Positions 13,891 through 63,994 of a stretch of DNA of 64,000 nt are shown one piece after another. A program made the position numbers and the translations under genes. Numbering within the stretch: position 1 is the first letter of the stretch; the number at the start of each line of letters is the position of its first letter. The notes under the pieces were generated by a model. The model was not told the origin of the DNA. It saw nothing but the letters and a program-made list of their open reading frames with translations, and did not search any database. The stretch is taken from positions 434,001 to 498,000 of the forward strand of contig WHVD01000032.1 in NCBI GenBank assembly GCA_015178975.1. The letters are read 5' to 3'. The stretch comes from Hysterangium stoloniferum. Taxonomy: Eukaryota; Basidiomycota; Agaricomycetes; Hysterangiales; Hysterangiaceae.

Positions 13891-14868
13891 CTATTCATCT
13901 ACATTTATGGGGCTGTCCTTTTTCCCCACCTCAGCTTTCTCCACCTCAGCCATCTCCTTAGGGAGCTCTGCTATCTCCACAGGCACCCTGTCCTCATCCA
14001 AACCAGTGTCCTCAGAACTCCCGACCTGCAGCTCCTCATAAACATAGCTGCCAAACTCTACCAGGAATTTGAAATATTCCGAGCAGAGCCCCCAGAGTTT
14101 GTTCGCCACCACAATTTGGACCTTGTTGCTCTTCTGGAGCAACTCATTCTGGGCCTCTATGCCCTCAGTGATCCATCCTAAAACCTCGTCCAAACCAGAG
14201 ATCCCATCTGACCCGCTAATGTCCCACGCCACAGACCCCATGGGCTGCTCATGAATGAGCGAGCACCTTACTTTGAGATGTGTGCACTGGTAGCAGCCCA
14301 GTCCCTGCCCGGACTTCCGATTGCATTCAGTGTTCCAGTCATTACAACTGGAACACCGCAGGTTGTTCCATGTAGGTAGGCAGACTGGTGCCGCTTTCCT
14401 TGCCTTCTGTTGATTTGGTTAGTTCCCCAGACTTCCCACAGACTTGAGACTTACCTTTTGGGGGCTCTCCAGCTCCCCCTCGGACTCTGATTCAATCTCT
14501 GTCACCTTGCATTGAAAATACCAAGTCAGTTAAACTCGACAAGTTGAAACTATGGGACTTACTTTGCCCACGGCAACTGCGGCCCTCTCCACAGCCACCC
14601 AGGCTTTCTCCATGGCAACCCGTGCAGCCTCCTCCTCATCCTTCTTCCTTTTCTCCTCAGCCACTTTCTCCGTTGCCAAGGCCACCTGGTATTCTCTATC
14701 CAGGGCCTCCTTGACCTCCCTGGCTTCCCTTTCCACCTCCTCTCACTGTCAACATTGTTCCTCCCGCTGCGCCAAAATTTGGGCAGTGGTGAGAGGTGCC
14801 CGGTATTGGTTGCCTGTGGAGGGCCCGGCAGTCAGCATTGGTCTTCTTGGCGTTGGCTTTGATCCCAT
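13891..14868 (-). pseudogene. antisense accessory gene of A1: coiled coil + Zn(2)-Cys(6) cluster, 3 exons
   Basis: Runs against gag-pol. Exon 1 14868-14563 (306 bp, ATG 'MGSKPTPRRP', then a charged, heptad-like Glu/Lys/Ala helix), intron 51 bp, exon 2 14511-14455 (57 bp, acidic, ends 'ESPQK'), intron 48 bp, exon 3 14406-13891 (open to its stop). Exon 3 contains CSSCNDWNTEC and CYQCTHLKVRC separated by nine residues: C-x2-C-x6-C-x9-C-x2-C-x6-C, the spacing of fungal binuclear zinc-cluster transcription factors. A helical segment 'GLDEVLGWITEGIEAQNELL' follows. Defects: TGA codons at 14751-14749 and two codons later, and an AA instead of AG acceptor before exon 2. It is homologous to 16997-17938 and 62835-63938. 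Role is inferred; no known family name. Confidence 0.8.
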
Positions 14869-15078: not shown

Positions 15079-15896
15079 TGTTACAACTGGAATTCCTGCT
15101 GGACTCCAGGCACTAACTTATACGCACCAATTGTCAGTTTACTGAAATCCCCCCCAGACTCCATACATCAGACTTGTCCTTGTTCAACTTCATTACATTG
15201 TGTATCAGTCACCAGAATACCAGCCAGACTCCATCCCTGTCTATGTCTGACTTTGTCCCACGTGTCAGTCACCAGACCCCGACTGGAAAACCCATCATCC
15301 CTCTAACTGAGCCCCATTCCCATTTTAGTCAATGACCTGTCACGATTTGGACTCCACTCCTGCTCTGTTTCCCATTATGGTTTATGATTTGTCACGATTT
15401 GGACTCCGCTCTGTTCTGTCCCATTCCTAACACCAAATTTGGTGTTTAATTATCCTGTTTTATGTTTTGCTAGTTTCATTTCATCATTACGGGATTTGGT
15501 ATGTTATTCATTACACAGTCTATGTAGTCTGACAGATGTTGTACATACAATCCAGTCAGAAAATTGGTTTAGATTCTCCCCAGTAATCTAGTACATTTTC
15601 CACTCTAAACTCCTCTTTGAATTACACCACTTCCACTAGTCAGAGCCCATGGGCTCCGATGCATCTATCTCTCAACCTCCAACTTAGTCATCTCAACTCC
15701 CCGACCTCTCGACCCATGACCTCTGACCTACGACCCCTCAACCCACTAACTCCACCCAGACTCCCTGGGATTCCTGTCTGCCTGTTTGAAAATGGACAAC
15801 ACGATCTCATGAGGGCACAGTTTATAAGCTGAAGCCAAGTCCTACCTGATTTCCTGCGGATTTCCCCGGAAACCCACTGTGTACGTACCCTTAACA
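15079..15896 (+). repeat. A1 3' LTR (LTR-A)
   Basis: Follows a purine-rich tract (AAAGGGAGGGTAC). Starts TGTTACAACTGG, ends CCCTTAACA, 818 bp. Contains a CTATGTAGTC box (the TATA position of sister LTRs) and the motif shared by all gypsy LTRs in this window (near 15816: ATAAGCTGAAGCCAAGTCC). Confidence 0.9.
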
Positions 15897-16129: not shown

Positions 16130-16672
16130 TGTTACGACCCGTTCCCAGATGTTTCAATATCCGACTTCTGATCCCCATCTACGGAACATCATGGTTACCG
16201 TATCATCCGCATTATTCCCTTGTTCCGCATTTGGTAATTTGTCTGTTGACAAGTATTCACTCGTTTGTTGTTGTATTCCCATTTCGGAATATTGTCTCCC
16301 TAATGTGTCTTATTGTATTTCCGTTTTAAGAACATTTCCATTTCCGTCTTATTATGGTCTTAGTTTGTAGTACAATAACAAGTAAACTTATATTAGTTTC
16401 TGCGAATTTGTACTTTACCTTAGATCTGATATTGACTTAGTTTCTTATTCCTTCTCCCGTCTTTCTGTACGCTCGATATTCGGAACTCTTCGGAACTCTG
16501 GATATCTGTATCTTCCATTGTAAGTCTCACCTCTGAAATTAAGGACTTTGAGTGTTTGCATAGAGGTGCAGCACATAAGCTGAAGCCGATGTCCTGACCC
16601 TATCCGACAGTTCCCAACTTCCCGGTGACTTTCTGATAGTTCTGGAATAAGTTCCTGACACGGCACTTAACA
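16130..16672 (+). repeat. solo LTR-B inside the A2 LTR
   Basis: 543 bp, TGTTACGACCCG...CACTTAACA, flanked by GTGGA (16125-16129 and 16673-16677). It matches the 5' LTR of element B (57233-57776). Confidence 0.92.
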
Positions 16673-16940
16673 GTGGACAGGTCTGACATATAGAGTATGG
16701 CGGGTATTCTGGTAAACTGATAATTTGTGTGTATAGGGTGTGGGTGCATTTAAGTTAGTGCCCGGAGTCTGGTGGGATTTCCAGTCGTAACAGTACCCTC
16801 CCTTTATGCCAAAGTCCCAAAGAGGCTCTAGAACTTGATAAGGTTTTGTTGGCTATGCACATGTGTTAGAAAGTCATGTCAGTTACACATGTGTCAAAGA
16901 GTCACATGATCTGGAAGGTAAGGTTCAGATGTGATGAGCC

Positions 16941-16996: not shown

Positions 16997-17938
16997 ATGG
17001 GCCCCAAGCCAATGCCGCACAAACCAATACCAACTGCTGGGCCCCCCACAGGCACTCCACATTGGGCTCCACTCACTGCTGCCCAAATCGTGGCACAGCA
17101 GGAGGAGCAGCACTGACAATGAGAGGAGGCAGAGAGGAAGGCCAAGGAGGCTGAGGAGGAATTGGACCGAGAGTACCAGGCGGCACTGGTTGTTGAGAAA
17201 GAGGCCAAGGAGCAGAGGAAGAGGGATGAGGAGGAGGCTGTGCGGGTTGCCATGGAGAAAGCCAAGGCAGCTGTGGAGAGAGCTGCAGTCGCCGTGGGTA
17301 AGGTAAGTACCAGTGATCCACAATGTCAACTTAACTGACTTTGCATTTTCAGTGCAAAGTGGCAGAGGTTGAGTTGGAGTCTGAGGGGGAGCCAGAGAGC
17401 CCCCAAAAGGTAAGTCTCGGGTCCATGGGTATTCAGGGGACTAACCACATCAACAGAAGGCAAGGAAAGCAGCTCCAGTCCACCTACAAGCAAAAAATGT
17501 GCTGCCGTGCTCCAGTTGTAATGACAGGAACACTGACTGCCATCAGAAGTCTGGGTGGGGACTGGGCTGCTGGCAATGTGTGCACCTCAAAATGAGGTGC
17601 TCACTTGTACGGGGTCCATGCGGGAAGTGAGTGGGTCGGACAGGCCCACAGGCTTGGATGAGGTCCTGGGGTGGATAGCTGAGGGCATAGAGGCCCAGAA
17701 TGAGTTGCTTGAGAAGAGCAACCAGGTGCAGGTGATCGTGGTGAAGGAAATGTGGGGGCTCTATGAGGAGTTTTAGAAATTCCTGGCAGAGTTCAGTAGT
17801 TATGTATATGAAGAACTGAAAATTGGGAGTTCCAAGGAGCTGGGATCGGATGAGGATGGGGTTCCCGTGGAGATAGCGGAGCTCACACAGGAGATGGCTG
17901 AGGTTGGGCAAAAACATAGCCCCATGAATGTAGATTGA
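16997..17938 (+). pseudogene. antisense accessory gene of A2: coiled coil + Zn(2)-Cys(6) cluster, 3 exons
   Basis: On the plus strand, opposite to A2's gag-pol, between the purine tract and the chromodomain. Exon 1 16997-17302 (306 bp, same length as in A1), intron 50 bp (GTAAGT...TTTCAG), exon 2 17353-17409 (57 bp), intron 47 bp (GTAAGT, CTAAC branch site, ACAG), exon 3 17457-17938. Exon 1 encodes a long Glu/Lys/Arg coiled coil ending 'VAVGK'. Exon 3 has CSSCNDRNTDC, nine residues, then CWQCVHLKMRC, a perfect Zn(2)-Cys(6) spacing, and a C-terminal helical part. Defects: TGA at 17114-17116 and two codons later, a frameshift after the zinc cluster (about 17615-17640), and a TAG in 'YEEF-stop-KFLAEF' near 17776. 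Confidence 0.82.
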
Positions 17939-18129
17939 CAATTAAATAATGAAGTTTAATAATTTTTGAAAATAAAAGTAAAATGTGAAAAGCATAAAAA
18001 GTCTATGGGAAAATCCACTAGGACTTGAAAACATGTCAGAAACCTGTCAAAGCAAAGAGAGACATAGGGTGACAGGGAAAAATGAAAATGAATCAAATCG
18101 TAACACGGGTTCCATGGAGTGTGGTCAGA

Positions 18130-21100
18130 GTGAGGATAGTGGTCCTTGTTTGAGCAGGTAAGCTGTGTGAAAGTCAGTAACAATCTCCATGGCATTACCG
18201 AGTTCTGTGGCCAAAATGCATGAAGTCTCTTCATCAGTGCCCTCGTAACCCATCCACTTGACCAAGTAAAGCAGTTTACAAGTGTATCAATACTTATCAA
18301 TTTTCGAATCTAAAATTTGTGAGATTTCAAACTCAGGTTCTCTGTCAATAATGACTGGAGGAGGTGGAGATTGCACACAATCTGGGATATTGTTAGCAGT
18401 ACGAGGTTCTAGTATAGAAACATGAAATACTGGGTGTACCACATGCATGCTATCCAGAAGCCGTAGGGTCCAAGAAACTGAACCTACTTGTGCTATTATT
18501 TCAAATGGATTTAAATATTTTTCAGCAAGTTTCTTTTGGATGGGTAGTCTGAAGAATTGAGCTTTGACAAAAACATGATCACCAATTTTGAAGTTGGGTG
18601 GCAGGATCCAGTTCTTGTCCGCTGAATGCTGGTATTGCTCTTGGGCAGATGTTATTGCAGTCCAGAGTTCCCTGTGGAGCTCGTGGAGGTCCATGATGAA
18701 CTCTTGAGCATGGGCAGAGGCAAGATTTCATTCTGGGTGTACTGTAATATTGGGATTATATCCTTTATTTGCAAAGAATGGGGAAATGCCAGTAGTGGCT
18801 AAAGGTGCATTGTTGTAAGCAAATCCTGCAAGTGGTAACAGGGATTTCCAATTGTCCTGTTGATAGTTGCAATATACACAGAGGTATTGTTCCAATGTCT
18901 GATTGACATGTTTGGTTTGTCCATCGCCTTCTGGGTGATGTCTGGATGTGAAGTGTAACTTCATGTCCAAGGATTTCCTGAGGGATATAAAGAAGTGAGA
19001 CACGAACTCTGATCCTCGATTGGAAGTTACATGGGACGGAACTCCATGCTTGGAAAATACGTGGATAATAAAAAGTTCCACTAACTGCATGGATGTAATG
19101 GTATCATACGTGGGAATGAATATACCTTGGTTCGAGAATCTGTCAACAATGACTAGAATGGTGGAGAAGCCTTTGGAGTCCAGTAGGTGTTCAATGAAAT
19201 CCATAGAGATGGAATTCCACGGGTATTCTGGTACCGGGAGTTGTTTCAAAAGGCCATATGGCTTGTGATGCTGTGATTTAGAGTGTGGACAAGTAATGTA
19301 AGATTTACAATAGTGCTTAATGAAGCCTCGGAGTCCAGGCCAAGTGTATTCTCTTCTTATTAATGATAGATCTTTGTTGAACCTGAAATGTCCTGAGAGT
19401 GGATGGTCATGTTTGTACTGAAGGATCCTGAGGTGGAGGCCAGCGGAGTCCAGTACATATATGTGATCATCAAGTCTAATGAAACCATGCTGATCGAGAG
19501 ACCGGGTTGACCAGAGTCCATGGGGTTCTCAAGGTGTGCTTTAGTTATTGGGTCTAGTGGAATTGCTGATAGAATATCTTGATGTAGCTTCTCAATACCC
19601 ATAATGAGAATTCCACGGACAATGGGATGTATGAGGAAAGTTGTGCAGACTGATGCAGCAAGTTGCTGATTTGTGAAAATAGGTTTCAAGTTGTGCGGGT
19701 TTACTGTGGCATAGTCATTGCTCCCCTTTTTAGGATAGATGTCCCATCATCTAGTTAAAGCATCAGGTTTGCTGCCGAGGTGACTGGGTCGAAGACAGAT
19801 AATCATATTGAAGGCTGATAGGTATTTGGACCAGCAGGCCTGCTGATGGGTCGAAAGTTTCATAGTAGAAAAGTATTCTAGGTTTTTGTGATCTGTTACA
19901 ACATCAATCGGAATTCCCGAGCCTTCCAAATAGTGTCACCACATTTTGAAAGCTGAAAAGATTGCTAGGAGTTCCTTATCATTAACATCATAATTGAGCT
20001 CTGCTCTGGTTAAAGTCTGGGACAGAAAACCCACAGGGTGAACTTCTCCATTAGAGTCCTGGATAGACAGAATGGCTCCAAGTGCATAGTCCAAGGCATC
20101 CCTTTCAACAATGAGCGGGAAGTCCAGTTTCCAATGTGACAGAATTGGAGCTGAAGAAAAAGAATCTTTTAAAAGATTGAAAGCTTTTTGAAGCTTATCA
20201 TTAAAATTCCACACAGTGTCCTTGCATTTAAGACAGGTAAGGGGAACCGTGATGTCAGAATATCTGTGAATAAACTGTCAGTAAAAATTGGCAAAGCTGA
20301 GGAAAGATTGTATATCTTTGACTTTTCTGGGTTCTGGCCAATCTTTGATGACTTGTGCTTTAGTTTCATCCATGTGGAGTCCACCGGGTCCCATTATGAA
20401 ATGTAAATACTCCACAGAGTCCATGTCAAAAGTACATTTTTTATCATTTGCGAATAAACCATGTTGTCTGAGTCTCCGGAGAACTTCACAGACTTGTTTG
20501 TTGTGTTCCACAGAGTCCTCAGAGTAGATAAGAATGTCATCCAAGTAAACAATGACACATACATCAAGCATGTCGGAGAAAATGTCATTGATAAAACATT
20601 GAAAAACAGATGGAGCATTGGTGAGTCCAAAGGGCATCACCAACCACTCAAAGGTGTTACGACTGGAATTCCCACCAGACTCCGGGTACTAACTTATATG
20701 CACCCGCACCCTATATGCACCAATTGTCAATTTACAGGAAAACCTGCCAGACTCCGTATGTCAGACCTGTCCACGTTTGTCCTCCATTACTTCATGTATC
20801 AGTCACTGGAATACCCGCCAGACTCCATCCCTGTCTATCTCCAACCCCATCCCACACATCAGTCACCAGACCCCACTTGAAAAACCCATCAGCCCTCTAA
20901 CTGAGCCCCATTCCCATTATGGTTAAATGACCTGTCACGATTCAGGCTCCGCTCCCACCCCATTCCCATTATGGTTTCATGACCTGTCATGATTCAGACT
21001 CTGCTCCATTCCATTCTGTTCCTAACACCAAGTTTGGTGTTTATTTATCTCATTTTACGTTTTCTAGTTTAGGTTTCATTATTACTGGATTTGGTATGTT

Positions 21101-21890
21101 ATTCATTCCACAGTCTATATAGTCTGGCAGATGTTGTACATACAATCCAGTCAGAAAATCAGCTTAGATTCTCCCCAGTAATCTTAGTATATTTTCCACT
21201 CTAAATTCCTCTTTGAAACACATCGCTCTTACTCATCGGAGCCCACAGGCTCTGACCCATCTATCACCCAACCTCCTACTTATCTATCTCGACTCCCCAA
21301 CCTCTCAACCCATGAACTCTGCCCAGACTCCCTGGGATTCCCATCCACCAATTTGAAATTGGACAAGACAATCTCACAAGGGTGCAGCATATAAGCTGAA
21401 GCCAAGTCCTACTGGCTTTCCCATGGGTTTCTCTGGAAACCCTCCGTGTACGCACCTTAACCAAAGGGCCCATAATGGGTTCTGAAAGTGGTTTTCCATT
21501 CATCTCCCATGGAGATCTGGACCAAATGGTAGGCATGTTTAGGTCTATTTTGGTATAAATCCGGGCATTCCGTGGAGCATCGAGCAAGTCAGATATAAGT
21601 GGGAGTGGATACTTATCCTTTTTTGTGACAGCATTGAGTCCTCTGAAATCAACACATAGTCTAAGGGATCCATCCTTCTTCTTGACAAACAGAACAGGTG
21701 CTCCAAAAGGAGACTTAAAGGGTCTGATAAAACCTATGGACAAATGTTCATCCAGGAATCCTGGATTGCAGAACATTCCGTGGACAAAAGGGTAAATATG
21801 TCCAAGGGGTGGCTGTCCAAGGGGTGGCTGGGCACCTTTTTCGAGGTCAATTTTCAAGTCATACTCTCTGTGGGGTGGAACCTGGTCAGC
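18130..21890 (-). pseudogene. A2 pol (RT-RNase H-integrase-chromodomain), interrupted
   Basis: Reverse transcriptase begins near 21890; '[15 protein letters not shown]' and 'DFRGLN' lie at about 21700-21640; a frameshift follows 'YTKIDL'. A solo LTR-A (20655-21462) interrupts it. It resumes with '[14 protein letters not shown]' and the intact catalytic YLDD near 20545. RNase H: 'ERDALDYALGAILSI' near 20110 (the usual first Asp context is altered) and '[10 protein letters not shown]' near 19890. Integrase: zinc-binding part about 19480-19260, core 'SISMDF' near 19200 and 'SNRGSEFVSHFF' near 19005, where the second catalytic Asp is Asn. C-terminal 'VFHVSILEP' and a chromodomain ('CKLLYLVKWMGYEGTDEE'-like) end near 18130. 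Several stops, for example after 'SFANFY'. Confidence 0.9.
20655..21462 (+). repeat. solo LTR-A inside A2 reverse transcriptase
   Basis: 808 bp, TGTTACGACTGG...ACCTTAACC, flanked by AAAGG (20650-20654 and 21463-21467). The reverse transcriptase frame joins across it. The last base is C where the family has A. Confidence 0.92.
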
Positions 21891-22138
21891 TTTTCACTTA
21901 CTACAAAGTTGTGATATTTCTCTGGGATGCCTTCTAGATTGGCGGTTTGCTCAAATGCAGATACCGGAGTTGAGAAATGACTGGTTGCTTCATCAATTTT
22001 TAAATTGATACTGAACACCTGGGACCTGTCCATTTTTGTAGCCCTAATAAATGCTGCAGCATTAATGAGAGAAATAGATGGAACACCTGGGACCCATCCA
22101 TTTTTGTAGCCCTAATAAATGCTGCAGCCATTCTGGAA

Positions 22139-23313
22139 CTCAATGACCAGGTTTTCTGCACAACAGACAAAGGTTATTGTCCATACGACATTGTCTTTCT
22201 TGTGGGGTCAATTTGCCATCAGGTTTGAGCTTGCCTGTGAGGTTGGGTTTTCCGGTTTTCTTTGCTGGACTGTTGACCTTTGTTGTTGTTGTTCTTGTTA
22301 GAAGACTTTTTATTGTTCTTGTTAGAAGACTTTTTATTGTTCTTCTTATCAGATTGCATGGTGTTTTGGTTGCTGGTGGATGAAGTGTTGTTGTTGGTTT
22401 TATTGGCCATGGAGTTGTTGACTTTGTCCATGGAGGTCTCATGGGCAACTTCCACACAATGTTCCCAATAGTGTGCATGCATTTTGAGCCTTAAGACACA
22501 TACGGGACAGTGTTTTTGGCTTACCATCTTCTCCTTTTGAGACTTTGTCTTTAAGGCAAAATGGCAGACTGGTATAGAACTGGTGGTGGAGAGCAGGATT
22601 GCCCCACTGACAATGAGCTGCAGGATTGTTGAACTGGACAATATAGTCCATGATGCTCTGGGTGTCCTTCATATGAAGATTAGTGAGACTATTCTCAGCT
22701 TCTCCAGTCAGGTCATATGGGCCAAAGTTGGTTTCTAGCTCCATAACAAAAGCATCCCAATCTTCAAGCCAAAGTGGCTCTTCCTCAGAAAGTCCACTAA
22801 AAGCTGGTTCGAACCATTTCAACGTGGATCCTGAGAGGTATGAAAGTGCATAATTGACTTTTCGGGAGTCTGTGGAGAATGTAGTGGATGGATCACAGAA
22901 ATTGAAGTGACATTGCATGAGGAAATTGGAAAGTTTGTTTGGGTTGGAACCTGTGAAGGGTTCCGGAGCATTGACGTTTGACTGCGGAGGTTCCAGATCC
23001 TTCTTACTGCCTTCTCCAAGCATGTGATTCATCAATCTCTCTAAATTGATTGCTAACAACTCAGAGGTGGGGTCTGAAAGTGGTGGTCGATTGTTAGACA
23101 GGGGATTTTCAGCACCTTTGCCCTTGTCAGGGGCCATGGACTCGTCCTTGTTCTTGGATTTTCCGGGACTTCTTCGATACAGGCTTCTTCCATGGTGTCT
23201 AGCTGGTTTGTGAGTGTTTGGCTGGTATACAAAGTAAGTGGGGAATGAAGAGTTGACAGTCCAGGTAATGATTCCTGTACATGTGCTTTTCTTCTTGGTG
23301 GCATATTGAACAA
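22139..23313 (-). pseudogene. A2 gag with CCHC knuckle
   Basis: Starts 'MPPRRKAHVQ' at 23304 (an upstream ATG at 23313 is also in frame). The capsid-like part includes 'PEPFTGSNPNKLSNFLMQC' and 'WFEPAFSGL' (about 22960-22780) and 'GPYDLTGEAE' near 22720. After a Asn/Lys-rich low-complexity part it ends with 'CLLCRKPGH' near 22150, the start of a retroviral-type zinc knuckle. A frameshift lies near 22520-22470. Directly after the knuckle the sequence jumps to reverse-transcriptase-proximal sequence, so the protease is deleted. A 45-bp local duplication follows (22017 and 22084). Confidence 0.88.
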
Positions 23314-23338
23314 TCTGCGAGTCTCAGTCAGAAAATAT

Positions 23339-24133
23339 AGTTATGTGTTGTGTGGAGCTTGTCAGAGGGTTTCTAGAGAAACCTGTGGGAAAGCTGGTAG
23401 GAGTTGGCTTCAGCTTATAGGTTGCACCCTCACGAGATCGTCTTGTCCAATTTCAAATGGGTGGATGGGAACCCTGGGGAGTCTGGGAGGGGTTCATGGG
23501 TTGTAAGGTCGGGGAGTCGAGATAGATAAGTCGGAGGTCAAGTGATAGATGGGTCAGAGCCCGTGGGCTCCGATGAGGTAAAGCAGTGTGTTTCAAAGAG
23601 GAGTTTAGAGTGGAAAATATACTTGAGATTACTAGGGGGAATCTAAGCTGATTTTCTGACTGGATTGTATGTACAACATCTGCCAGACTATATAGACTGT
23701 GGAATGAATAACATACCAAATCCAGTAATAATGAAAACTAAACTAGCAAACATGAAATGAGATAAGTAAACACCAAACTTGGTGTTAGGAACGGAACAGA
23801 GTGGAGTGGAGTCTAAAACCATAATGGGAACAGGGTGGGAGTGGAGTCCGAATCGTGACAGGTCATTTAACCATAATGGGAACGGGGCTCAGTTAGAGAG
23901 CTGTCAGGTTTTCCGAGGAGAGTCCAGTGACTGGTGTGTGGGACAGGGTCAGAGATAGACAGGAGTCCGGTGGGTATTCCAGTGACTGATACATGAAGTA
24001 ATGAAGGTCGAGTGTGGACAGGTCTGACATATGGAGTCTGGCAGGTATTCTGGTAAACTGATAATTGGTGTGTATAGGGTGCAGGTGCATTTAAGTTAGT
24101 GCCCGGAGTCCAGCGGAATTTCCAGTCATAACA
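23339..24133 (-). repeat. A2 5' LTR (LTR-A)
   Basis: In minus orientation it starts TGTTATGACTGG and runs 795 bp to ...CACACAACACATAAC; the inner end has lost its perfect CA. It holds CTATATAGTC and the shared LTR motif near 23410. Confidence 0.88.
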
Positions 24134-24261
24134 GTGACTAACTAAAAGTGCAGCGGAGTTTGAAAATATGATAAAGACAAGGTGCTCTCACCCTTGATTT
24201 ATAAGAGTATTTTAAGGTAGGTCAGGAGTGAATTTGGAAAAATTGAGATTGTCCCCTGACA
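24134..24261 (+). repeat. LTR-F, right part
   Basis: Continues LTR-F from GTGACTAACTAAAAGTGCAG to CCCCTGACA, matching 49176-49304. See the left part at 10267. Confidence 0.85.
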
Positions 24262-25419: not shown

Positions 25420-25965
25420 TGTTACGACCCGTTCCCGGATGTTTCAATATCTGACTTCCGATCTCCGACTTCCAACTTCCGATCTCCGACCGTATCATCC
25501 ACGTTCTTCCCTTGTTCCACATTTGGTAATTTGTCTGTTGACAAGTATTCACTTGTTTGTTTGTTATATTCCCGTTTCAGAATATTGTCTCCCTAATATG
25601 TCTTATTGTATTTCCGTTTTAAGAACACTTCCGTTTCCATCTTATTATGGTCTTAGTTTGTAGTACAATAATGAGTAGACTTATATTAGTTTCCGCGAAT
25701 TTGTACTTTACCTTAGATCTGATATCGACTTAGTTTCTTATTCCTCCTCCCATCTTTCTGTACGCTCGATATTCGGAACTCTTCAGAACTCTGAATATCC
25801 ATATCTTCCATCGTAAGCTTTACTTCTGAAATTAAGGACATTGAGTGTTTGCGTAGAGGCACAGCACATAAGCTGAAGCCGACGTCCTGACCCTATCTAA
25901 TAGTTTCCGACTTCCCGGTGACTTCCCGATAGTTCCGGAATAAGTTCCTGATACGGCACTTAACA
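25420..25965 (+). repeat. solo LTR-B
   Basis: 546 bp, TGTTACGACCCG...CACTTAACA, flanked by CTGAC (25415-25419) and CTGAT (25966-25970), a target duplication with one C-to-T change. It lies only 8 bp beyond the LTR-C target duplication. Confidence 0.9.
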
Positions 25966-25970
25966 CTGAT

Positions 25971-31819: not shown

Positions 31820-31904
31820 TTGCGTATAAATCCCTGCCAGGTTCCACCACTCTCTTCACGCCGCCCACCCCCTCCCCCTCCCCTCTCCCCCCAAACGCCA
31901 CATC
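31820..31904 (+). promoter_or_regulatory. promoter-like block, copy 1
   Basis: GCGTATAAATCCCTGCC is followed by CCACTCTCT and a long C/T-rich tract ending ACGCCACATCAA. The same order recurs at 32990-33057. TATA plus pyrimidine tract is common at strongly expressed basidiomycete genes. It stands directly upstream of the plus-strand frame in the palindrome's left arm. Confidence 0.45.
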
Positions 31905-32468
31905 AATGCAAACTGTAGCTTACTTGTTGCCTCATTGTCTCATTCTCTCTCAAGACTACCTTCAATCCCTATATCCGCCCCTCAATGTCATCAAGCGTTA
32001 TATCAAGTCCCTCAACATCATCAAGTATTATATCAAGCCCATCAAGGTCGTCAAGTGTTATATCAAGGTCAATCAGTTCAAGCCCAATAGTGTTACTTCA
32101 CTTGCTTTCTCTTGGCTGGGTTGCTTCCGCGGTCGCTGTCTGGTATGAGAATCACTGAGTTTTTTTATGGGGACAGTAGGGCGGTCGGGGTAGCGGTATC
32201 CCCCTGATGAGAGCTTTCGTCGGCTTCAAACGACCACGGAAGCAACTCAGCCAAGAGAAAGCAAGTGAAGTAACAATATTAGGCTTGAACTGATTGACCT
32301 TGATATAACGCTTGATGACCTTGAAGGGCTTGATATAACACTTGATGACGTTGAGGGACTTGATATAACACTTGATGACATTGAGGGGCGGATATAGCGC
32401 TTGAAGGTAGTCTTGAGAGAGAATGAGACAATGAGGCAACAAGTAAGTTACAGTTTGTGTTGATGTGG
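31905..32468. repeat. long palindrome with internal 30-bp repeats
   Basis: The left arm (31905 to about 32137) and right arm (about 32218 to 32468) are inverted copies around a spacer of about 80 bp. Each arm contains three units of about 30 bp with the core ATCAAG-GTTATATCAAG. Each arm keeps an open frame reading outside-in: left (plus) and right (minus) both encode 'YLLPHCLILSQDYLQ', a repeated 'IK-YIK' peptide, and 'FKPN-VTSLAFSWL'. Product unknown. Confidence 0.75.
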
Positions 32469-32989
32469 GGTTTGGGGGGAATATACATGGTAAATGTGGA
32501 GCATTAGGGAAGGAGAAGAAAGGGGGAACAAAGAGACAAGAGATATTTGGCATTGTGGGCTCTATCTAGGCTGCTGAATGCATGTGTCATGTCTCATCCA
32601 GAGAAACCGAACAAAGGCATTGTTCGATCTAATAGCCCTTGGCGTCAATGTTGTGGGAGGGACGGAATAAATCATAGACCACGCACAAGACGTTTTCTGC
32701 TGCTTTATATCTATCGGAAATATAGGATATTAACTATGTATATAGTCTGAATATTTGAATGCTGGTATTTATTTTATATGTAGGTGAAATTCAGGATTTT
32801 CGCAGTGGGACCTGCTTAATATATACTATTTTTTACCTCCAATAACAATAGTACGCAAAATCCGCGGGCATGGATCGATGGAGGGGCTAATCACTATAAT
32901 TAAATCCATCCAATGAATATAGTCTGGGAACGAAGTGAAATTGAAGGCACACGCCTGTATTCGGTTGGAGCAGTGCGACAACTCAACCT

Positions 32990-45890: not shown

Positions 45891-46480
45891 CAAAACTTTA
45901 AAAGTTATTTATCCACTACAAAGTGTATTTGTTTGTTGTAAAATTAATATTTAATCAAATTCAGTTGATTAGGTATCACTCTGAAGAATGTAAAAATATT
46001 AATATTTATCCTATATCTGACAAAATTTAGTCAAACAATTATTTGTAGATTATTCTTTTGGAATAAATTGCACAATGGGGATTGGTACCCCAGATAGTTC
46101 TGGTTAACTCTCTAAACCAACTAAATTTAAATTATATGAAATATATTTGAAAGTTTGCTTGTATACAAGAGAATACATCATAACCCAAAGATTGAGTCAT
46201 AACCCAAATAATCTAGGTTAACCCAAATAATCATGTGTAACTATGTCATTTGTGTGTATTTTAAAAGGGCATGCATATTTTAAAGATGAAATTTCAGGTA
46301 ATTAAATATAAACTCATAGAATAAGTTGACATGGCCAGAAGGAATAGTCTCACTTGGAAAATATGAGGATTATTCAGTAAAATTTTGTATATTCAATAAA
46401 GTGTGACCATCCTCCTTGATTCATTGTTTTTTCTTTATTTATCATACTTTATTTCAATTTAGTTTACTTTATTTAAATTA
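45891..46480. other. AT-rich, no gene
   Basis: No open frame of note and no repeat apart from AT-rich TTTATTT runs near 46430-46480. Confidence 0.5.
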
Positions 46481-46564
46481 TTCTCTCTGGTTGTATTGAG
46501 GCTTTCCTGGGATATGGGATCCTTGTCCAAGGAACTAGTGTGTCGAATTGTCTCCATTGAAGGG

Positions 46565-47098
46565 GGCACGGGAAATGCTTCTGTGAAGGGCACGGGAAAT
46601 GCTTCTGTGAAGGGCACGGGAAATGCTTCTGTGAAGGGCACGGGAAATGCTTCTGTGAAGGGCACGGGAAATGCTTCTGTGAAGGGCACGGGAAATGCTT
46701 CTGTGAAGGGCACGGGAAATGCTTCTGTGAAGGGCACGGGAAATGCTTCTGTGAAGGGCACGGGAAATGCTTCTGTGAAGGGCACGGGAAATGCTTCTGT
46801 GAAGGGCACGGGAAATGCTTCTGTGAAGGGCACGGGAAATGCTTCTGTGAAGGGCACGGGAAATGCTTCTGTGAAGGGCACGGGAAATGCTTCTGTGAAG
46901 GGCACGGGAAATGCTTCTGTGAAGGGCACGGGAAATGCTTCTGTGAAGGGCACGGGAAATGCTTCTGTGAAGGGCACGGGAAATGCTTCTGTGAAGGGCA
47001 CGGGAAATGCTTCTGTGAAGGGCACGGGAAATGCTTCTGTGAAGGGCACGGGAAATGCTTACTGTATGTCAAGGGCACGGGAAATGCTTACTGTATGT
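46565..47098 (+). repeat. 24-bp minisatellite, 20 near-perfect units
   Basis: Unit GGCACGGGAAATGCTTCTGT + GAAG, identical from 46565 to 47044, then two 31-bp variants (with TACTGTATGTCAAG). Because 24 is divisible by three, three frames stay open across the array (for example repeated 'GTGNASVK' on plus and 'PFTEAFPV' on minus). I do not regard these as genes. Confidence 0.95.
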
Positions 47099-47639
47099 CA
47101 AGGGTGCAGGAAATTCCACTGGGAGAGTCATGGGACATGTGTCCATTAGGGGCACATGAAATGGTGAAAAATACTCCCATGGCATCACAACATACCTCTG
47201 TGCATCACAAAATACTTCTGCACCAGTCACAAAGTACTCCCACAAGTTTGGAAATGCTTCCATGGTGTCAAAGAAACTTCCATGAATGCAAAAAAGCCTC
47301 TGGGTTTGCTCCCGTGATGACTAATATGAAAGCTTAGTCACACTCTCCCACACAGAACATCCTCATAAAGATGTTTAAGTACTAAATACACAGATACATT
47401 TTGCTTCATGATGAGGCAATAGACATATCACTTACTCTCAGTGATTAAACGTTCACTGAGAGATTCACTAGCTATACTATGTGTATATAATAGTACATTC
47501 GAGAGGAGTTTGAACAATACAACACATTGCATCTTTTCAAGACATTCTGTCTCACCTTCTTCATAAGTACAAGTGCTTACTTCTTTAATACTCATTATAC
47601 CTAATACCTCAGCATCTATTCTTGCCCACAACCCACGAA
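47099..47639. other. decayed flank of the 24-bp array; otherwise empty
   Basis: 47100-47290 keeps diverged units (GGCACATGAAATGG, CATCACAAAATACTTCTG, TTGGAAATGCTTCC), showing the array was once longer. 47340-47630 has no recognised feature. Confidence 0.5.
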
Positions 47640-52948: not shown

Positions 52949-54539
<1,591 letters not shown>

Positions 54540-56326
54540 TGAGCATGAAGACACTGCACATACATAGGAGCCCATTTGTTTAGGTTCAGCATGTATTCGT
54601 GTCTGTCCATGCTTCAGCATACTCATCACGTCTGCTATTATATCCACCATCCTTCGACATCTCTTTCAACTTTTTACCTCTTCACTTTGGCATGTAATCG
54701 CATCTGCTTCATTGTCTCATTGCTACCACATCTATTAGGTCTGTGCATTGTCAGCTTGTCTGTCCTGTTCATTGATGATGCAATAGCATCTGCTATCAAT
54801 TCCAGTGGCATCGATTTCAAAATATTTGTCAGCAACACTGCGATGCATAACCATCATCTCACTGTTGCCTCTTAGCAAATACTTTGTGTCACTCTACTCT
54901 GCACTGACATCTTACCCTCACCTCTGAGCACATTTTTACCTCACCACTACCATGAAGGTTTTTTTTGTGTCTCCACTATCATCATACTACATATCACATA
55001 TGGGTGAACTTTACCACCATCATTCCTCTAACGGCTATGTTTATTCTTTTGGTGACCACCTTTTCCAATGTCTACCGCAACCACTCATCAAAGGGGAAAT
55101 GGACTGAACCATCTCTGAATGGTCATTTCAGGTACAAAAATAATAGCACATTTATTGAGTATAACATTCAAATTTAATTTTCTTGACATGTGACTCCTTT
55201 GTTTTGTTGGTGCATGCATAATCGAGGGGCAACATCCACTGCCAGGAACAAGACCTTACACCATGACAAGCCAGAAAGCTTTGAAATCTCACACTACGGA
55301 GTTTTTGTTTAGGCCAAATCCGACTCTGGACCATATTAACAACCTAGTTGTTACTAGTTGAATAACAGTACATTGATACACCTCAGTGCATTCTATATTG
55401 GTGGGATTATGTCCTAGAAGCTCAACTTACTTAGAGTTCTTTAATGGCTCTATCATGATGCTGGCAAGTGATCATTTCACATCTGCCCATACATTCACGA
55501 AATGTATGTATATTCACTCTATATTCCATTCTTTCACTACCATTGACATGTTCATAACAAACACATTATCTAACCCCAAATATCAATAGTTGGCACCACC
55601 CAAGGAGTCAACCAAGCAGGCCAGTGCATGGGAGCAATTCTCATTGGCCCCCTTGTCAAGCAATGCCTAATCTCATAGATTGTGTCAGCTACATGTATTA
55701 GGAGGTGGTGGTATGTTAATAGAGCTTGCTTTGAGAGGTATAGATATTGCCTATGGAATGGTTGAGTTTGATTGATGCATCATGTACGTCTGCTTTCATT
55801 TCTGTAGCTGTTCAATTCTACTTCATGACTTATAATAACACATCCCAGTCCCACTAACATCATCGGTGGTGATGTTCAGAAATGATGTCGAATGGATGCT
55901 ACCGTTGTATGTCTATTTACCATCATTTCCTACTCTCATGAAATTTAGTCAACATTTAAGCACATGTTCTATGGTCTGTCATTTTGCATCCTAAATTCAT
56001 GATCAATGCCAATAACCATCAACAGAAGTAGCAGGAACAATAGGTGCATTTGCCTCATCCTCTGCAACCAGTCGATAAGGGAATAATTATAGTTTCTTCT
56101 TTATCCTGGTATGTACACATTTCTCATTTTATTGTAATTCGTAACCGTTATCATTCTGACATGACCAACAACAACAACCACAAATAGTCTTCTTTGCTTT
56201 TCCAGGTGTAAGTCATAATCTCAAAAGCCATGTTTAGCATCGTCCACACTTCACTGAAACTATAATCTATAAGGCTTTCTGTGAGTACTATTATTTCCAA
56301 CCACTTCTGAACCAGAAATTGAAATT
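54540..56326. other. no recognisable gene
   Basis: Short frames only; none has a nameable motif. Confidence 0.45.
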
Positions 56327-57232
56327 ATGTTGTTCAGCATCCCTCTCACCTGCTGTCAACTTGGCTCCTCCGCTTCTGTCCTGAACAGTTTCCCTATCAA
56401 CAGTTGTTGGTCCAACATGGCAAATGAGACGAGCCCTGACACTATTGGACAATCAACCAACGGAACCCTGCCTGAGGTCAGTACAATGAATGTTGTGTAC
56501 CATAGTTATGATCATGTTGAAGCTGGTGTTGTCGTTTTAGAACCCACTACCAGATGGCATGCTCATCTGTCTAGATGTGGACTGGCAAGCCTGTAACCAC
56601 ACCATCCTCACTCTTGGCACTTGTCACAACCTTAGGGAAAACTGGGACAATATGATTTCCAGTATTGGGCCTGACAATGGCACAGTTGTAAGTTATGTGT
56701 ATTGTGGCTATTTATGGATACCGATTGAGATCCAATAATGTATTCGCAGATTCTGACTATGGTTGGCCATGCCAACTCTTTAACATTTCGACCCAGGTCA
56801 GGTAAGGATAATCAAGATGCAAACCTTGATACGCCCCCTATGGCAAAGCAAGGATACATACTGCAATTCTTAGTACCGATTATAGGATTTACAGAGTCCT
56901 TAATTTATAGTGTGAGGTTGGATTTTGGGCATTGGAAATTCATCTGTAGATTAAGATTTCATTGTTTTGTTTTGTTGTCTACCCAATGTATATATATATA
57001 TTCAACAATACTACTCAATGCAGTACATGGGAGCAAAATTTAAATTGCACATTCAGATTTTCTGAGTAAATCTTTTATTGACGCATTCTACAATGACTGG
57101 CTGCTCAATTCCACAACAAAGTACTGTAGAACAAATGTCAAAGGCAACTCTGTGGCCAATACTGAACGATTCAAACAAACCTTGAAAGGAAAGCACGGTA
57201 TGGTGAGTAATAGCTCTAATGGGGGGAGGTAC
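56327..57232 (+). pseudogene. possible fragment of a small secreted protein gene
   Basis: Around 56560-56690 a plus-strand frame reads 'TLGTCHNL' then 'MISSIGPDNGT' before GTAAGT, reminiscent of small cysteine-containing fungal secreted (crystallin-like) proteins. The frame is interrupted and the rest (56730-57220) is not recognisable. The last 14 bases (57219-57232) are a purine tract like those that precede the gypsy LTRs. Confidence 0.25.
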
Positions 57233-57776
57233 TGTTACGACCCGTTCCCGGATGTTTCAATATCCGACTTCCGATCTCCGACTACAGAACATCATAGGTA
57301 CTGTATCATCCGCGTTCTTCCCTTGTCCCGCATTTGGTAATTTGTCCGTTGACAAGTATTCACTTGTTTGTTTGTTGTATTCCCGTTTCGGAATATTGTC
57401 TCCCTAATATGTCTTATTGTATTTCCGTTTTAAGAACATTTCCATTTCCGTCTTATTATGGTCTTAGTTTGTAGTACAATAACAAGAAGACTTATATTAG
57501 TTTCCGCGAATTTGTACTTTACTTTAGATCTGATATTGACTTAGTTTCTTATTCCTTCTCCCGTCTTTCTGTACGCTCGATATTCGGAACTCTTCAGAAC
57601 TCTGAATATCCGTATCTTCCATTGTAAGTCTCACCTCTGAAATTAAGGACTTTGAGTGTTTGCATAGAGGCGCAGCACATAAGCTGAAGCTGACGTCCTG
57701 ACCCCATCCGATAGTTCCCAATTTCCCGGTGACTTTCCGATAGTTCCCGAATAAGTTCCCGACACGGCACTTAACA
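57233..57776 (+). repeat. element B 5' LTR (LTR-B)
   Basis: 544 bp, TGTTACGACCCG...CACTTAACA. Same family as the solo LTRs at 16130 and 25420. Shared motif near 57678 (ATAAGCTGAAGCTGACGTCC). Confidence 0.92.
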
Positions 57777-58960: not shown

Positions 58961-59040
58961 AACTCTTCCAAGGCCCGCACAGCAACTTCCACTACGACTA
59001 CAATGTCCAAGGAAAAACCTGCCACAGAGTCGAAAAAAGA

Positions 59041-62000
59041 GTAAGCAACCCTCCAGAAACTGCACGGACAGAAGGTGGTGTTGACTCTCTCCGTGTTTCC
59101 AAGGTTATCCATCTCAACGCGTCCGCTCTCTCTAATCCCGATTCATTATTTGTAAAACTCGTTTCTGACTTTCTTGGAAATTTAGTGTTCCGAGCTCTGA
59201 TAGATTCCGGCTCCACACACTGTTTTGTAGATGCCACCTTTTCCACGAAACATAATCTGAAACTCCATTCTGTTCCCGCAATTTCCTTACGTTTGTTTGA
59301 CGGCACTAGCAATACGGCAATTACCCAAGCCTGCGACATGTCTATCCGGTTCCCTTGTGGAACATCTCAGACGGTTACTTTTTTCATAACACAGTTAGAC
59401 TCTAGCTGTTCGGTAGTTCTTGGATACAACTGGCTCACCCAATATAATCCGTTGATTGACTGGGTATTGGGGAGTATTAATTTCTGGATTCCCGACACTT
59501 CGGTTCCTCCTGCAGCGTCTTTTCCGGCCAACACCTTTTTGGCATCTACAGCACCTCCGGCTTCTACCGAAACCTCCATGCCTCCAAAAATCTCTCTCAT
59601 CAATGCTTCAGCATTTGTTAGGGCAAGTAAACTGGATGGCTCACAGTGTTTTTCAATCAGCTTAAAAGTTGATGAAGCATGTGGACGTTTTGCGACTCCA
59701 GAATTATCCAAGCTAAAAGCTGACCTGGAAGGAGTTCCCGAGAAATACCATGATTTCGCAGACATTTTCAGTAAGCAAAAAGCTGACAGGCTTGCACCAC
59801 ATAGGCCCTACGACTTCAAAATCGATATTGAGCCTGGTTCAAACCCTCCGTTAGGACCTATTTACTCATTATCCCAATCAGAACTTTCGTCTATTCGGGA
59901 GTTCCTGGATGAACATCTGTCGATAGGTTTTATCCGTCCCTCAAAGTCTCTGTATGGAGCACCCGTCCTTTTCGTCAGAAAGAAGGATGGTTCCCTTCAA
60001 CTCTGTGTTGATTTCAGAGGATTAAATTCCATCACACGGAAAGATAAGTATCCACTTCCACTCATTACTGATTTACTCGATGCCCCACGGAAAGCTCGGA
60101 TCTACACCAAAATAGACCTCAAACACACCTATCATTTGGTCCGAATTGCCGAGGGCGACGAATGGAAAACTGCTTTTCGAACTCGCTATGGATCCTTTGA
60201 ATGGTTGGTTATGCCATTCGGCCTTACCAACACCCCTTCCGCTTTTCAACATTTTGTTAATGACATATTTTCCGACATGCTTGATGTATGTGTCATAGTC
60301 TATTTGGACGACATTTTGGTATTTTCCGAGGATCCCGCTCTCCACGATGAACAGGTCCGTGAAGTCTTCTGAAGACTCCGTAAAAATGGTCTTTTCGCTA
60401 ACGGTAAAAAATGCTACTTTGACATGGATTCTATTGAATACTTAGGTTTCATTATTGGACCTGATGGTCTCCATATGGATGAAGCCAAGGTTCAAGTTGT
60501 CTGTGACTGGCCCGAACCACAGAAAGTCAAGGATATTCAATCATTTTTAGGTTTCGCCAACTTTTACCGTCGTTTTATTCAGAACTACTCGGATATTACA
60601 GTACTACTCACTCGTCTTACCTGTAAAACTCAACCATGGGTCTTTGATGACAAATGCCGCTCTGCCTTCCAGACTTTAAAAAATGCTTTCACTTCTGCCC
60701 CGATTCTTTCCCATTGGAAACCTGATGTTCCGATTATTGTGGAAACCGATGCTTCCGATTATGCAATTGCCGCAATTCTTTCCATTCAAGATTCCGACGG
60801 TGAAATTCATTCAGTCGCATTCCTTTCTCAGACACTGAAAGTGTCCAAACTCAACTATGACGTTCATGATAAGGAGCTTTTGGCAATTTTTGAAGCTTTC
60901 AAACATTGGCACCATTATCTTGAAGGTTCTGCAACTCCCATTGATGTTGTTACTGATCACAAAAATCTCAAATATTTTTCTACCACTAAACGTTTAACCC
61001 GCCGGCAGGCCCACTGGTCTGAATTCCTTTCTGCTTTCAACATGATTATCTGTTTCTGACCCGGACATCTTGGTGGAAAACTGGATGCCATGACTCGATG
61101 ATGGGACATCTATCCTAAAGAGGGGGAAAGTAACTATGCCGTTGTTAATCCACATACTGTAACTTGAAACCAGTTTTTATGATGCAACAACTTTCTGCAT
61201 CTATTTGAGCAACTTCCCTCTACTATCCAATTATGCGTAGCGTCATGATTATGGACATTGAGCAATTACATCAAGAAATCCTTTCCGCACTCACTTCCGA
61301 TCCAGTTGTCAAGCCACACCTAGAAGCTCCTGATAATCCCGACCAACCCCGATGGTCACAAGACTCTCAAGGTTTTATCTGTCTTGATAGACGTATCTAC
61401 GTCCCAGATTCCAACAATCTCCGACTCCGCGTACTTCAGTATAAACACGATCATCTGATCTCTGGACATTACGGCATTAATAATACTGTTGGTTTATTCC
61501 GTAGAGAATACACTTGGCCCAACCTCCGAGATTTCGTAACCCAGTTCTGTAAGTCATGCACCACCTCCTTATGCTCCAAAACCCAGAGGCATAAGCCGTA
61601 TGGCCTTCTCAAGCAACTCCCGATACCAGAAAAACCCTGGAACTCAATTTCCATGGATTTTATCGAACAACTCCCAACTTCCGAAGGCTTTACATCCATT
61701 CTAGTTGTTGTGGATCGGTTCTCGAAACAAGGCATTTTCATACCCACTCATGATACAATCATGTCCTTACAATTAGTGGAACTTTTCATTATTCACGTAT
61801 TTTCCAAACATGGAGTTCCATCTCATGTAACTTAACTTCCAATCGAGGCTCCAAGTTCGTCTCCCATTTCTTCCAGGCCTTAGGAAAAGCCCTCAACATG
61901 AAACTACACTTCACCTCGGGATATCACCTGGAAGGTGATGGACAAACGGAACGTGTAAATCAAACATTGGAACAATACCTCCACATCTATTGCAATTATC

Positions 62001-62740
62001 AACAGGACATCTGGAAATCCCTTCTCCCGATCGCGGAATTCGCTTACAATAACTCTCTGAATGCAACTACCAGTGTATCTCCTTTTTTTGCCTACAAAGG
62101 CTATAATCTGAATCTCACTGTACATTCCGAACAAGATTTGGCTTCTGTCCGTGCTCAAAAATTTATTACCGACCTCGACAAATTACATCAAGAACTTCGG
62201 AAAGCTATTTCTTCCGCAGAGGAATATTATCAACGTTCCGCAGACAAAAACAGGATCCCGCCTCCTAATTTTAAAATCAGTGATCAGGTTTTTGTAAAAG
62301 CTCAATTCTTCCATACTACCCAACCTTCTAAAAAACTTGCTGAGAAATTCTTAGGCCCTTTTGAAATTATAGCACAAGCCAGCTCACTCTCATGGACTCT
62401 CCAACTTCCCGATAGTATGCAAGCAGTTCATCCCATTTTCCATGTTTCCATGTTAGAACCCTGTGTTCCTAACAAAATCCCGGAACGTATTCAACCTCCA
62501 TCCCCTCTGGTCATTATTGATGGAGAACCCAAATTTGAAGTTTCCGAAATTTTGGATTCTAAAATCAACAATCGCCGACGTACTTGTAAATTGCTCTATT
62601 TAGTCAAATGGGCAGGTTATGAAGGTACTGACAGGGAAACTTCATGGATATTGGCCACGGAACTCAGACACGCTATGGAAATTGTCACTGATTTCCACAC
62701 GGCTTATCCAAACAAACCCGGACCTTTATCATCACTCTGA
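59041..62740 (+). pseudogene. element B pol (PR-RT-RNase H-integrase-chromodomain)
   Basis: Protease 'ALIDSGSTHCFVD' near 59200; reverse transcriptase '[20 protein letters not shown]' to the catalytic 'YLDD' near 60300; TGA at 60370 in place of CGA ('EVF-stop-RLRK'); 'FLGFANFYRRFI'; RNase H 'ETDASDYAIAAIL' near 60740; 'TDHKNLKYFS'; two more TGA stops around 61057 and 61079. Integrase from about 61230 with its zinc-binding part, 'SISMDFIEQL' and 'SNRGSKFVSHFF', where the second catalytic Asp is Asn. A tandem AACTT duplication at about 61830 shifts the frame. The chromodomain ('LLYLVKWAGYEGTDRETSWI') ends at the TGA at 62738-62740. Confidence 0.93.
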
Positions 62741-62834: not shown

Positions 62835-63938
62835 CTAGTTCAAAGTCTCTGACACTCCGAATCCACCTTCCATTTCCACTCCCATATCATCTGCAATCTC
62901 CACACTCTCCACCACATCCTGTACCTCTTCATCTTCACTTTCCAGCCCTTTCACTGACTCCCATCTCTTTTTGACATATTCTGCCAACGGATCGTTAGGC
63001 TGTTCCCTTGCCTTATCAGAAAATCTCTCAGAATCTGCGATCACACCGATGCTAACCATTACCTTCTCCAGGAATTCATTTTGTCTCCGGAAATTTCAGA
63101 CCAATGAACAGAAACCTTTTTCCTGGATCTCATTATGGTGATCTAGAGTATCCCGCATTTTCATGACTTCCATCCCGATAAAAACTAACGCATCAACGGT
63201 ATCCTTGAGGAGCTCCATGCCCGTACTGTCCATTTTCAGTACCTCAGTTTCCGCAGCCTTGGCAGCTCCCGAACTTTCCGCATCATTAGTTCTCTGAGGC
63301 TTCTCACCTTTTGGAACCCTTTTCGAGGTGAGAGTGCACGGAAGTTTGAGAACCGCACAGGGATAGCAAGTTCCCCCCCATTTCACCTTCTGTTTCCAAC
63401 ATGTCATACTCCGTATGGAACATCGATAATACAGATTTTCATGGACCACTTCCATCCGTTCCGGAGCCTGGACCTTTGGCTTCTGTTTCGGAAGTTAATC
63501 AATTATTGATCCTTTTGTAGATGCACTTACTTTAGGACTCGAAGGTCCAGCCTCTCCCTCTACCTCCACCTCCACGGCTTTTTGCTGTACCCAATAGTTA
63601 TCAGTTGAAAACACGGAATTTATGGGTAACACTTACCTTTCCTTCCCTTATCTCCTCACATTTTTTCGCCGCTTCTGACTCCCACTGTAACCTTTCCACC
63701 TCTTCCTTCCTTTTCTGAGCCTCCGCCTTTGCCCACTCCAACTCCCATTTTTCCGCCTCTTCCGCATCTTTCAACTCCTGCATCAAGTTTTCTCCTCCTC
63801 CTCCTGTCATCGCTTCAACTCCTCCATCCTTTGTCATTTTTGTTGAAGTTCTGTGACCTTCGACATTTTTTGTAGAATGGCAATTTCGGTATCTGAATCT
63901 TCCGGGGTAGTGATGAACAGTGGCCGACGTATCGACAT
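62835..63938 (-). pseudogene. antisense accessory gene of element B: coiled coil + Zn(2)-Cys(6)-like cluster, 3 exons
   Basis: Opposite to gag-pol, 95 bp beyond the pol stop. Exon 1 63938-63637 (ATG 'MSIRRPLFIT'; long Glu/Lys coiled coil ending 'EIREGK'), intron 52 bp, exon 2 63584-63531 (54 bp, acidic, ends 'SSPK'), intron 48 bp, exon 3 63482-62835. Exon 3 has the C-x6-C, ten residues, then CYPCAVLKLPC; the first Cys of the cluster is Tyr here, otherwise the spacing equals that of A1 and A2. 'QNEFLEK' near 63075 aligns with 'QNELLEK' of family A. Defects: TGA at 63836-63834, further TGAs and a frameshift in exon 1, TGA at 63098-63096. Confidence 0.78.
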
Positions 63939-63986
63939 GCAAGTTGTGGATGAAGAAACAAAAACATTAATTCAAATATTTGGAGG

Positions 63987-63994
63987 TTTTTATA
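63987..63994 (-). promoter_or_regulatory. TATA box of the element B antisense gene
   Basis: Minus-strand TATAAAAA, about 49 bp before the ATG at 63938, the same spacing as in A1 and A2 although the surrounding sequence differs. Confidence 0.6.

Follow-up and report, generated by a model that had tools for sequence, protein, structure and literature searches.

The window analysed here is a stretch of 64,000 nucleotides, G000:C246:434001-498000, from the 111-Mb genome assembly of the truffle-like fungus Hysterangium stoloniferum (Agaricomycetes, Hysterangiales). It contains three copies, A1, A2 and B, of two Ty3/gypsy families (A and B) of this fungus that carry an antisense gene of three exons with its own TATA box. 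In each copy, the gene is encoded on the strand opposite to pol and is placed between pol and the 3' LTR (Table 1); the three loci, their orientation and their position are as reported in the first-pass annotation of the window. Gag, protease, reverse transcriptase and integrase were detected with Pfam in the window pieces of A2 and B, with the gag and integrase domains matched in the A2 pieces, and these domains, together with the LTRs, are those of Ty3/gypsy chromoviruses. The chromodomain (PF00385) was found in B, the element covered by the Pfam scan for this domain, and the A pol end is 77% identical to that of B across the same part. A1 and A2 are copies of one family related to B and are placed end to end; part of pol seems to be missing from A1.

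Table 1. Retroelement features of the window (positions refer to the 64,000-nucleotide stretch)
Feature	Position	Strand	Remarks
Antisense gene of A1, broken copy	13891-14868	-	exon 1 14868-14563, exon 2 14511-14455, exon 3 14406-13891 (open)
Six-cysteine cluster of A1	14263-14355	-	
Antisense gene of A2, broken copy	16997-17938	+	exon 1 16997-17302, exon 2 17353-17409, exon 3 17457-17938 (out of frame)
Six-cysteine cluster of A2	17508-17600	+	
Remains of A2 pol and gag	18122-23323	-	Pfam; solo A-type LTR inside pol at 20655-21461
Probable 5' LTR of A2	23363-24135	-	similarity to A1 3' LTR region 15079-15879
5' LTR of B	57224-57757	+	self-comparison with the following contig sequence
CCG-N4-CCG-N4-CCG array near 5' end of B LTR	57263-57281	+	candidate target site
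B pol piece, protease and reverse transcriptase	58963-60372	+	PF08284 and PF00078 above cut-offs
B pol end, integrase SH3 domain and chromodomain	61754-62740	+	PF24626; PF00385 27.0 bits (cut-off 25.1)
Antisense gene of B, broken copy	62835-63938	-	GT/AG exon borders; intact relatives L010, L030, L105, L107, L108
Exons and introns of B gene	63938-63637 (exon 1), 63636-63585 (intron 1), 63584-63531 (exon 2), 63530-63483 (intron 2), 63482-62835 (exon 3)	-	
Zinc-cluster region of B	63336-63431	-	first cysteine is Tyr in the window copy (translation)
TATA box of B antisense gene	63989-63994	-	56 bp before ATG, outside LTR
3' LTR of B	64114-64647 (just past the window end)		94.4% identical to 5' LTR

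Several other repeats lie in the window. Two B-type LTR copies (16130-16674 and 25420-25968) have no adjoining B element, and the first of them sits within the A2 LTR region. A 293-residue open frame at 3849-4730 resembles, as judged by eye, the reverse transcriptase of Ty1/copia elements. Tandem arrays are formed by a 24-bp unit at 46444-47163 (at least 21 registers, with one frame repeating GHGKCFCE within a 258-residue open frame) and by an 18-bp unit at 54258-54563, and an inverted repeat at 31886-32480 consists of two 250-nt arms, 94% complementary and separated by 95 nt.

The antisense gene is built alike in the three copies: exon 1 measures 306, 306 and 302 bp and exon 2 measures 57, 57 and 54 bp in A1, A2 and B, respectively, and two introns of 47-52 bp interrupt the gene at matching places, all in agreement with the first-pass annotation. 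The TATA box that it reported 48-53 bp before the ATG is present in each copy and starts 56-60 bp upstream (54-60 bp for the clade as a whole), and the ATG is separated from the LTR by 174 bp in B and by about 203 bp in A. All three window copies are broken. In A1 and A2, exon 1 contains a stop codon at the same place; furthermore, intron 1 of A1 has lost its AG acceptor, which reads CAA, and the frame of exon 3 is lost in A2. The B copy contains stops, its exon 1 lacks one of the 303 bp present in close relatives, and a tyrosine replaces the first cysteine of the cluster, so that the six-cysteine spacing, which the first-pass annotation had assigned to all three copies, holds for A1 and A2 and is absent from B. 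The damage pattern of the dead copies, including their stop codons, fits CpG decay (two sites compared).

Intact copies, selection and age of the gene

The H. stoloniferum assembly contains many further copies of the gene in both families, which disposes of the concern, raised at the outset, that homologs in other element copies might be lacking. In 30 B loci retrieved through their match to exon 3 of the window copy, the GT and AG of both introns are conserved throughout (30/30), the ATG is kept in 29, a TATA box occurs within 75 alignment columns upstream in 28, and the length of exon 1 is divisible by three in 23. The spliced frame is complete in two of these loci, L010 (334 amino acids) and L030 (339 amino acids), open with an altered tail in L027 and interrupted in the other 27. 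Four more B loci (L105-L108) were taken from the best matches to P0002, a metagenomic homolog described below, among 150 listed; L105, L107 and L108 yield spliced products of 350, 347 and 350 amino acids, and no solution was obtained for L106. Altogether, five B loci encode an uninterrupted spliced protein of 334-350 amino acids.

In family A, 17 of 23 loci (all except L070, L071, L087, L088, L089 and L091) yield an uninterrupted spliced protein of 294 amino acids, with exons 1 and 2 of 327 and 57 bp, a fraction that is biased upwards because the loci were picked from matches with an open exon 3. A separate set of 38 A loci similar to the window copies was reduced to 37 after L067, which was too long, was dropped; all four splice dinucleotides are kept in 30 of these and not in the remaining 7, and none is complete, with L007 and L057 open for 257 and 264 residues. 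One example, L072, is a young complete element of family A that carries an intact antisense gene: its two 822-bp LTRs are 99.6% identical, gag and pol are open for 437 and 1304 residues, and the antisense gene encodes the 294-residue spliced product.

The position of the gene within the element, that of the antisense accessory genes termed aORF-3R, is equally constant. A pol-end probe and an LTR probe both matched, each on its expected side, in 25 of 30 loci of family B and in 24 of 38 of family A. The ATG is 173-175 bp from the LTR in 27 of the 30 B loci (the exceptions are L011 with 1001 bp, L024 with 184 bp and L021, where the LTR was not matched); in A, most distances are close to 203 bp. 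Seen from the other side, all of the best 40 matches to the B pol end adjoin at least the 3' part of the gene: 28 have a listed opposite-strand match to the gene within 1.5 kb, and each of the remaining 12 shows part of it by tblastn (only the last 111-138 residues in L093, L094 and L102). About 30 of the approximately 150 exon 3 matches listed lie below coordinate 7,000 of their contig, which may be due to breaks of the assembly within young repeats or to a preference for subtelomeric regions. In addition, the annotated host protein BU17DRAFT_80596 (P0001) overlaps part of the A-type antisense gene L070 (G000:C334:95402-95812), with a 99% match to this contig over residues 65-201, and is therefore probably part of a transposon that was taken for a host gene in the annotation.

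The dN/dS ratios, estimated with the Nei-Gojobori method, range from 0.13 to 0.38 over all within-family pairs computed. Within family A, the ratio is 0.14 for L072/L083 (bootstrap 0.07-0.25), 0.24 for L072/L084, 0.15 for L072/L007 and 0.15-0.34 for further pairs; within family B, it is 0.13-0.23 without L027 and 0.27-0.38 with this locus, whose tail is altered. Silent sites are saturated in A-B pairs. Shifted frames of the spliced gene gave ratios of 1.2-2.5, and when exons and strands were taken separately, every other frame reached 0.80 or more except for the sense-strand mirror frame (0.18-0.34), where the ratio is low because its silent sites are shared with the gene. The mirror frame has two or three stops in exon 3 and none in exon 1, where its dN/dS equals that of the gene, so that exon 1 alone cannot distinguish the strands. 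Small, frame-free indels distinguish the introns, in which GTAAG or GTAGG, an ACTGAC branch-like motif and CAG are conserved. Frames open by chance are ruled out by the conservation of the splice sites together with dN/dS. The antisense gene is under purifying selection at the protein level, in its spliced frame; this is the outcome of the comparison among copies that the first-pass annotation had suggested, with a lack of such selection named as counting against its proposal.

The antisense gene occupies the same site and has the same two introns in A and B, and the encoded proteins are 32-34% identical (BLASTP 7e-15, default composition statistics), which places its origin before the A-B split, as the first-pass annotation had it. 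The metagenomic homolog P0002 was found on two contigs, the longest of 7,663 bases; it is 41% identical to the B protein over 203 residues and contains all six cysteines. Its best matches listed in the H. stoloniferum assembly do not exceed 45% identity, which indicates that it comes from another organism, and the gene itself is probably older than the species H. stoloniferum. That the three window copies instead go back to a single gene captured recently and passed between A and B by recombination is highly improbable: the adjacency of A1 and A2 in the window might favor such a scenario, but it is contradicted by the 68-77% identity of the A and B pol pieces, far above that of the antisense proteins, by the agreement of gene and pol-end distances in 21 of the 30 B copies (Pearson 0.61, reached in 0 of 999 Mantel permutations), and by the older origin to which P0002 points.

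An ancient capture from a host gene is possible. In two regions of the assembly (G000:C56:27459-45410 and G000:C115:74483-75050), several host matches to Zn_clus (PF00172) are adjacent, some of them about 100 bp apart; these groups look like one protein with several clusters and, speculatively, such a protein could have been the source of the cluster in the elements. Database searches yielded few relatives. An alignment of exon 3 retrieved four proteins from the protein database, three of which are BU17DRAFT entries of H. stoloniferum; the full-length B protein had no match in this database, P0002 alone matched only itself, and two PDB sequence searches produced no relevant relative.

The protein and its candidate targets

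The exon 1 product is rich in Glu, Lys and Ala and, read by eye, coiled-coil-like. Exon 2 and the start of exon 3 encode KRKATEVESESEGEPESPQKKARK in A and KRKAVEVEVEGEAGPSSPKKPKVK in B, a pattern that, as judged by eye, is bipartite nuclear-signal-like around an acidic patch. The rest of exon 3 encodes, in this order, a six-cysteine module, a long helix and an acidic tail. A structure model of A1 exon 3 from the single sequence was uninformative (mean pLDDT 41), and a model of P0002 based on seven sequences was confident for the long helix only (block means of pLDDT 89-95, residues 101-160), with low confidence for the cluster.

The consensus of Zn(2)-Cys(6) clusters is C-x2-C-x6-C-x5-12-C-x2-C-x6-8-C. 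The spacing in family A is C-x2-C-x6-C-x9-C-x2-C-x6-C, with x10 in the middle in intact B and P0002, and the six cysteines of PF00172 are all kept in A, in the intact B loci (L010, L030, L105, L107 and L108) and in P0002; the tyrosine of the window B copy breaks this set. The best Pfam score against Zn_clus (PF00172), obtained with A1 exon 3, is 15.6 bits and does not reach the gathering cut-off of 21, which rules out canonical membership in this family. In the best partial matches, the start of the model aligns to loop 2 of A1 and its second half to loop 1 of young A copies. For reference, 20 host Zn_clus loci were fetched, 13 of which contain a full six-cysteine cluster; these have K/R averages of 3.15 (loop 1) and 0.69 (loop 2), and loop 1 of the element cluster contains 0-2 K/R and so lacks the basic character of PF00172. 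A loop-order score built from 11 distinct host clusters favors the swapped order for three A sequences, whose values were reached by 11, 0 and 5 of 500 shuffles, and gives no preference for two B sequences and P0002. Given the Pfam score below the cut-off, the few K/R in loop 1 and the fit to a swapped order in A only, we refer to the module as zinc-cluster-like. A Zn(2)-Cys(6) transcription factor, in line with the transcription-factor-like protein inferred in the first-pass annotation, is a candidate identity for the product, which the Pfam score, under the cut-off, and the two PDB searches, with no relevant relative, do not support.

A post hoc motif search of the LTRs showed an excess of CGG/CCG triplets relative to dinucleotide shuffles, with 54 versus 39.8 in LTR A (z 3.4) and 22 versus 12.4 in LTR B (z 4.0); in 51 background segments of the window, the median z is about 0 and one segment reaches the value of LTR B. 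The element bodies are also enriched in CGG, so the excess is not LTR-specific. The CCG-N4 array at the start of the B LTR is seen, in various states of decay, in 24 of 30 B loci with a located LTR start, and is longer in L105, L106 and L107 and not in L108. The A LTR has its triplets arranged differently from B and shows no enrichment of TCCGA-type motifs.

Possible functions and known counterparts

Because selection keeps the gene working and its product resembles a DNA-binding regulator, these elements may control their own activity. We consider it somewhat probable that the product is an element-encoded nuclear, dimeric DNA-binding regulator that acts on the LTRs of its own element and is encoded by a permanent accessory gene of a Ty3/gypsy clade. 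The TATA box and splice signals predict expression of the antisense gene from its own promoter. The protein would then enter the nucleus, dimerize and bind CGG-type triplets, including the CCG-N4 array at the 5' end of the B LTR, and would tune transcription of the genomic RNA from the 5' LTR as well as that of its own gene; since the antisense promoter adjoins the 3' LTR, the same LTR sites could serve both transcripts. Such feedback by a nuclear dimeric DNA-binding protein is the simplest reading of the data, in which we infer all steps after translation, including the direction of regulation. The two introns would be retained through retrotransposition, as splicing should not remove them from the genomic RNA, which is the opposite strand. 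This offers a reason for the antisense placement: a retroelement might be able to keep introns solely on the strand that does not form the genomic RNA. More tentatively, and with less confidence, one could envisage that an entire lineage of fungal retrotransposons makes a sequence-specific transcription factor of its own. The zinc cluster of this factor would be loop-reversed in A, and the factor would be expressed from a spliced antisense gene and read CCG-N4-type arrays at the LTR ends, in a self-contained circuit comparable to that of a complex retrovirus.

Other functions have to be weighed against LTR regulation. The VANC protein of plant VANDAL transposons provides a precedent for counter-silencing, and the product of the antisense gene could likewise bind element DNA and keep host methylation or heterochromatin off, rather than being a promoter-specific regulator. 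In dead copies, the fit of the stops to CpG decay would agree with methylation of old copies, a high CpG ratio (1.34) is retained in the young A LTR and the protein looks nuclear, but the observations made here fit LTR regulation equally, and we regard counter-silencing as unlikely. A role in replication or integration, as a nucleic-acid chaperone or as a factor that tethers the pre-integration complex or brings it into the nucleus, appears rather unlikely too. Zinc knuckles, coiled coils and nuclear signals occur in proteins with such roles, but the spacing of the cluster differs from that of a CCHC knuckle, pol already supplies integrase and, in B, a chromodomain, and the predicted promoter of the gene would give it a transcript separate from the genomic RNA. 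For antisense genes, roles in nuclear translocation and as accessory proteins are discussed in a review (PMC7264820). Finally, the antisense RNA rather than the protein might matter, through dsRNA or interference with the genomic RNA, the frame being incidental. Antisense transcription of elements is described as a possible source of siRNA (PMC7264820), but selection at the protein level in the spliced frame, an exon 1 that is a multiple of three in most B loci next to introns with frame-free indels, and the retention of six cysteines at 32-41% identity make this explanation very unlikely.

The role of antisense accessory genes in LTR retrotransposons is called undetermined or unknown in the accounts cited (PMC7264820, PMC11963269). 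The genes described here make this function directly testable, as they are under purifying selection, occur in many young and intact copies, and combine a DNA-binding-like cluster and two clear introns with a candidate target array in the LTR. Conserved antisense genes between pol and the 3' LTR are reported for the plant elements Grande (gene23), RIRE2 and PvRetro13 (PMC7264820) and Retand, with TRP28 (PMC11963269). In line with what is proposed for the fungal families, the products are described as nuclear proteins or predicted to bind DNA, and Grande has a promoter of its own for the gene; the passages cited mention neither a zinc cluster nor an intron, and TRP28 belongs to another Pfam domain. 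The closest fungal counterpart is Boty, or BcGypsy1, of Botrytis cinerea, a chromodomain gypsy element with the antisense gene brtn (PMC7264820, PMC8365987, PMC4227169, PMC5987419) that is grouped with the genes between pol and the 3' LTR. By these descriptions, on which our comparison is based, Boty differs in coming from an ascomycete, and neither splicing nor a zinc cluster is mentioned for brtn. The view of the first-pass annotation that such a gene was not known in fungal gypsy elements goes too far, given brtn, which is classed as the same kind (PMC7264820, PMC8365987). Among the best matches listed from open-licence PMC literature, none describes an antisense gene of a fungal retroelement that is spliced and has a zinc cluster. 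This is weak evidence of absence, and the spliced zinc-cluster-like form is, on that footing, apparently new.

With the fungal Zn(2)-Cys(6) factors of the Gal4 type (PF00172), the element module shares six cysteines, a family-like spacing and a helix after the cluster; it differs in its score below the Pfam cut-off, a loop 1 that is not basic, the swapped loops of A and its residence in a retroelement. HBZ of HTLV-1 is encoded by a spliced antisense gene at the 3' end of a retroelement and is considered a nuclear bZIP regulator with a coiled coil. The fungal gene resembles it in predicted splicing, location, putative coiled coil and presumed nuclear regulatory role, and differs in having a zinc-cluster-like module rather than a bZIP and a predicted promoter outside the LTR, whereas the antisense promoter of HTLV-1 is placed in the 3' LTR (PMC7264820); homology is not claimed. 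If the proposed regulation of the LTRs is correct, fungal elements, like complex retroviruses, would run their own regulation.
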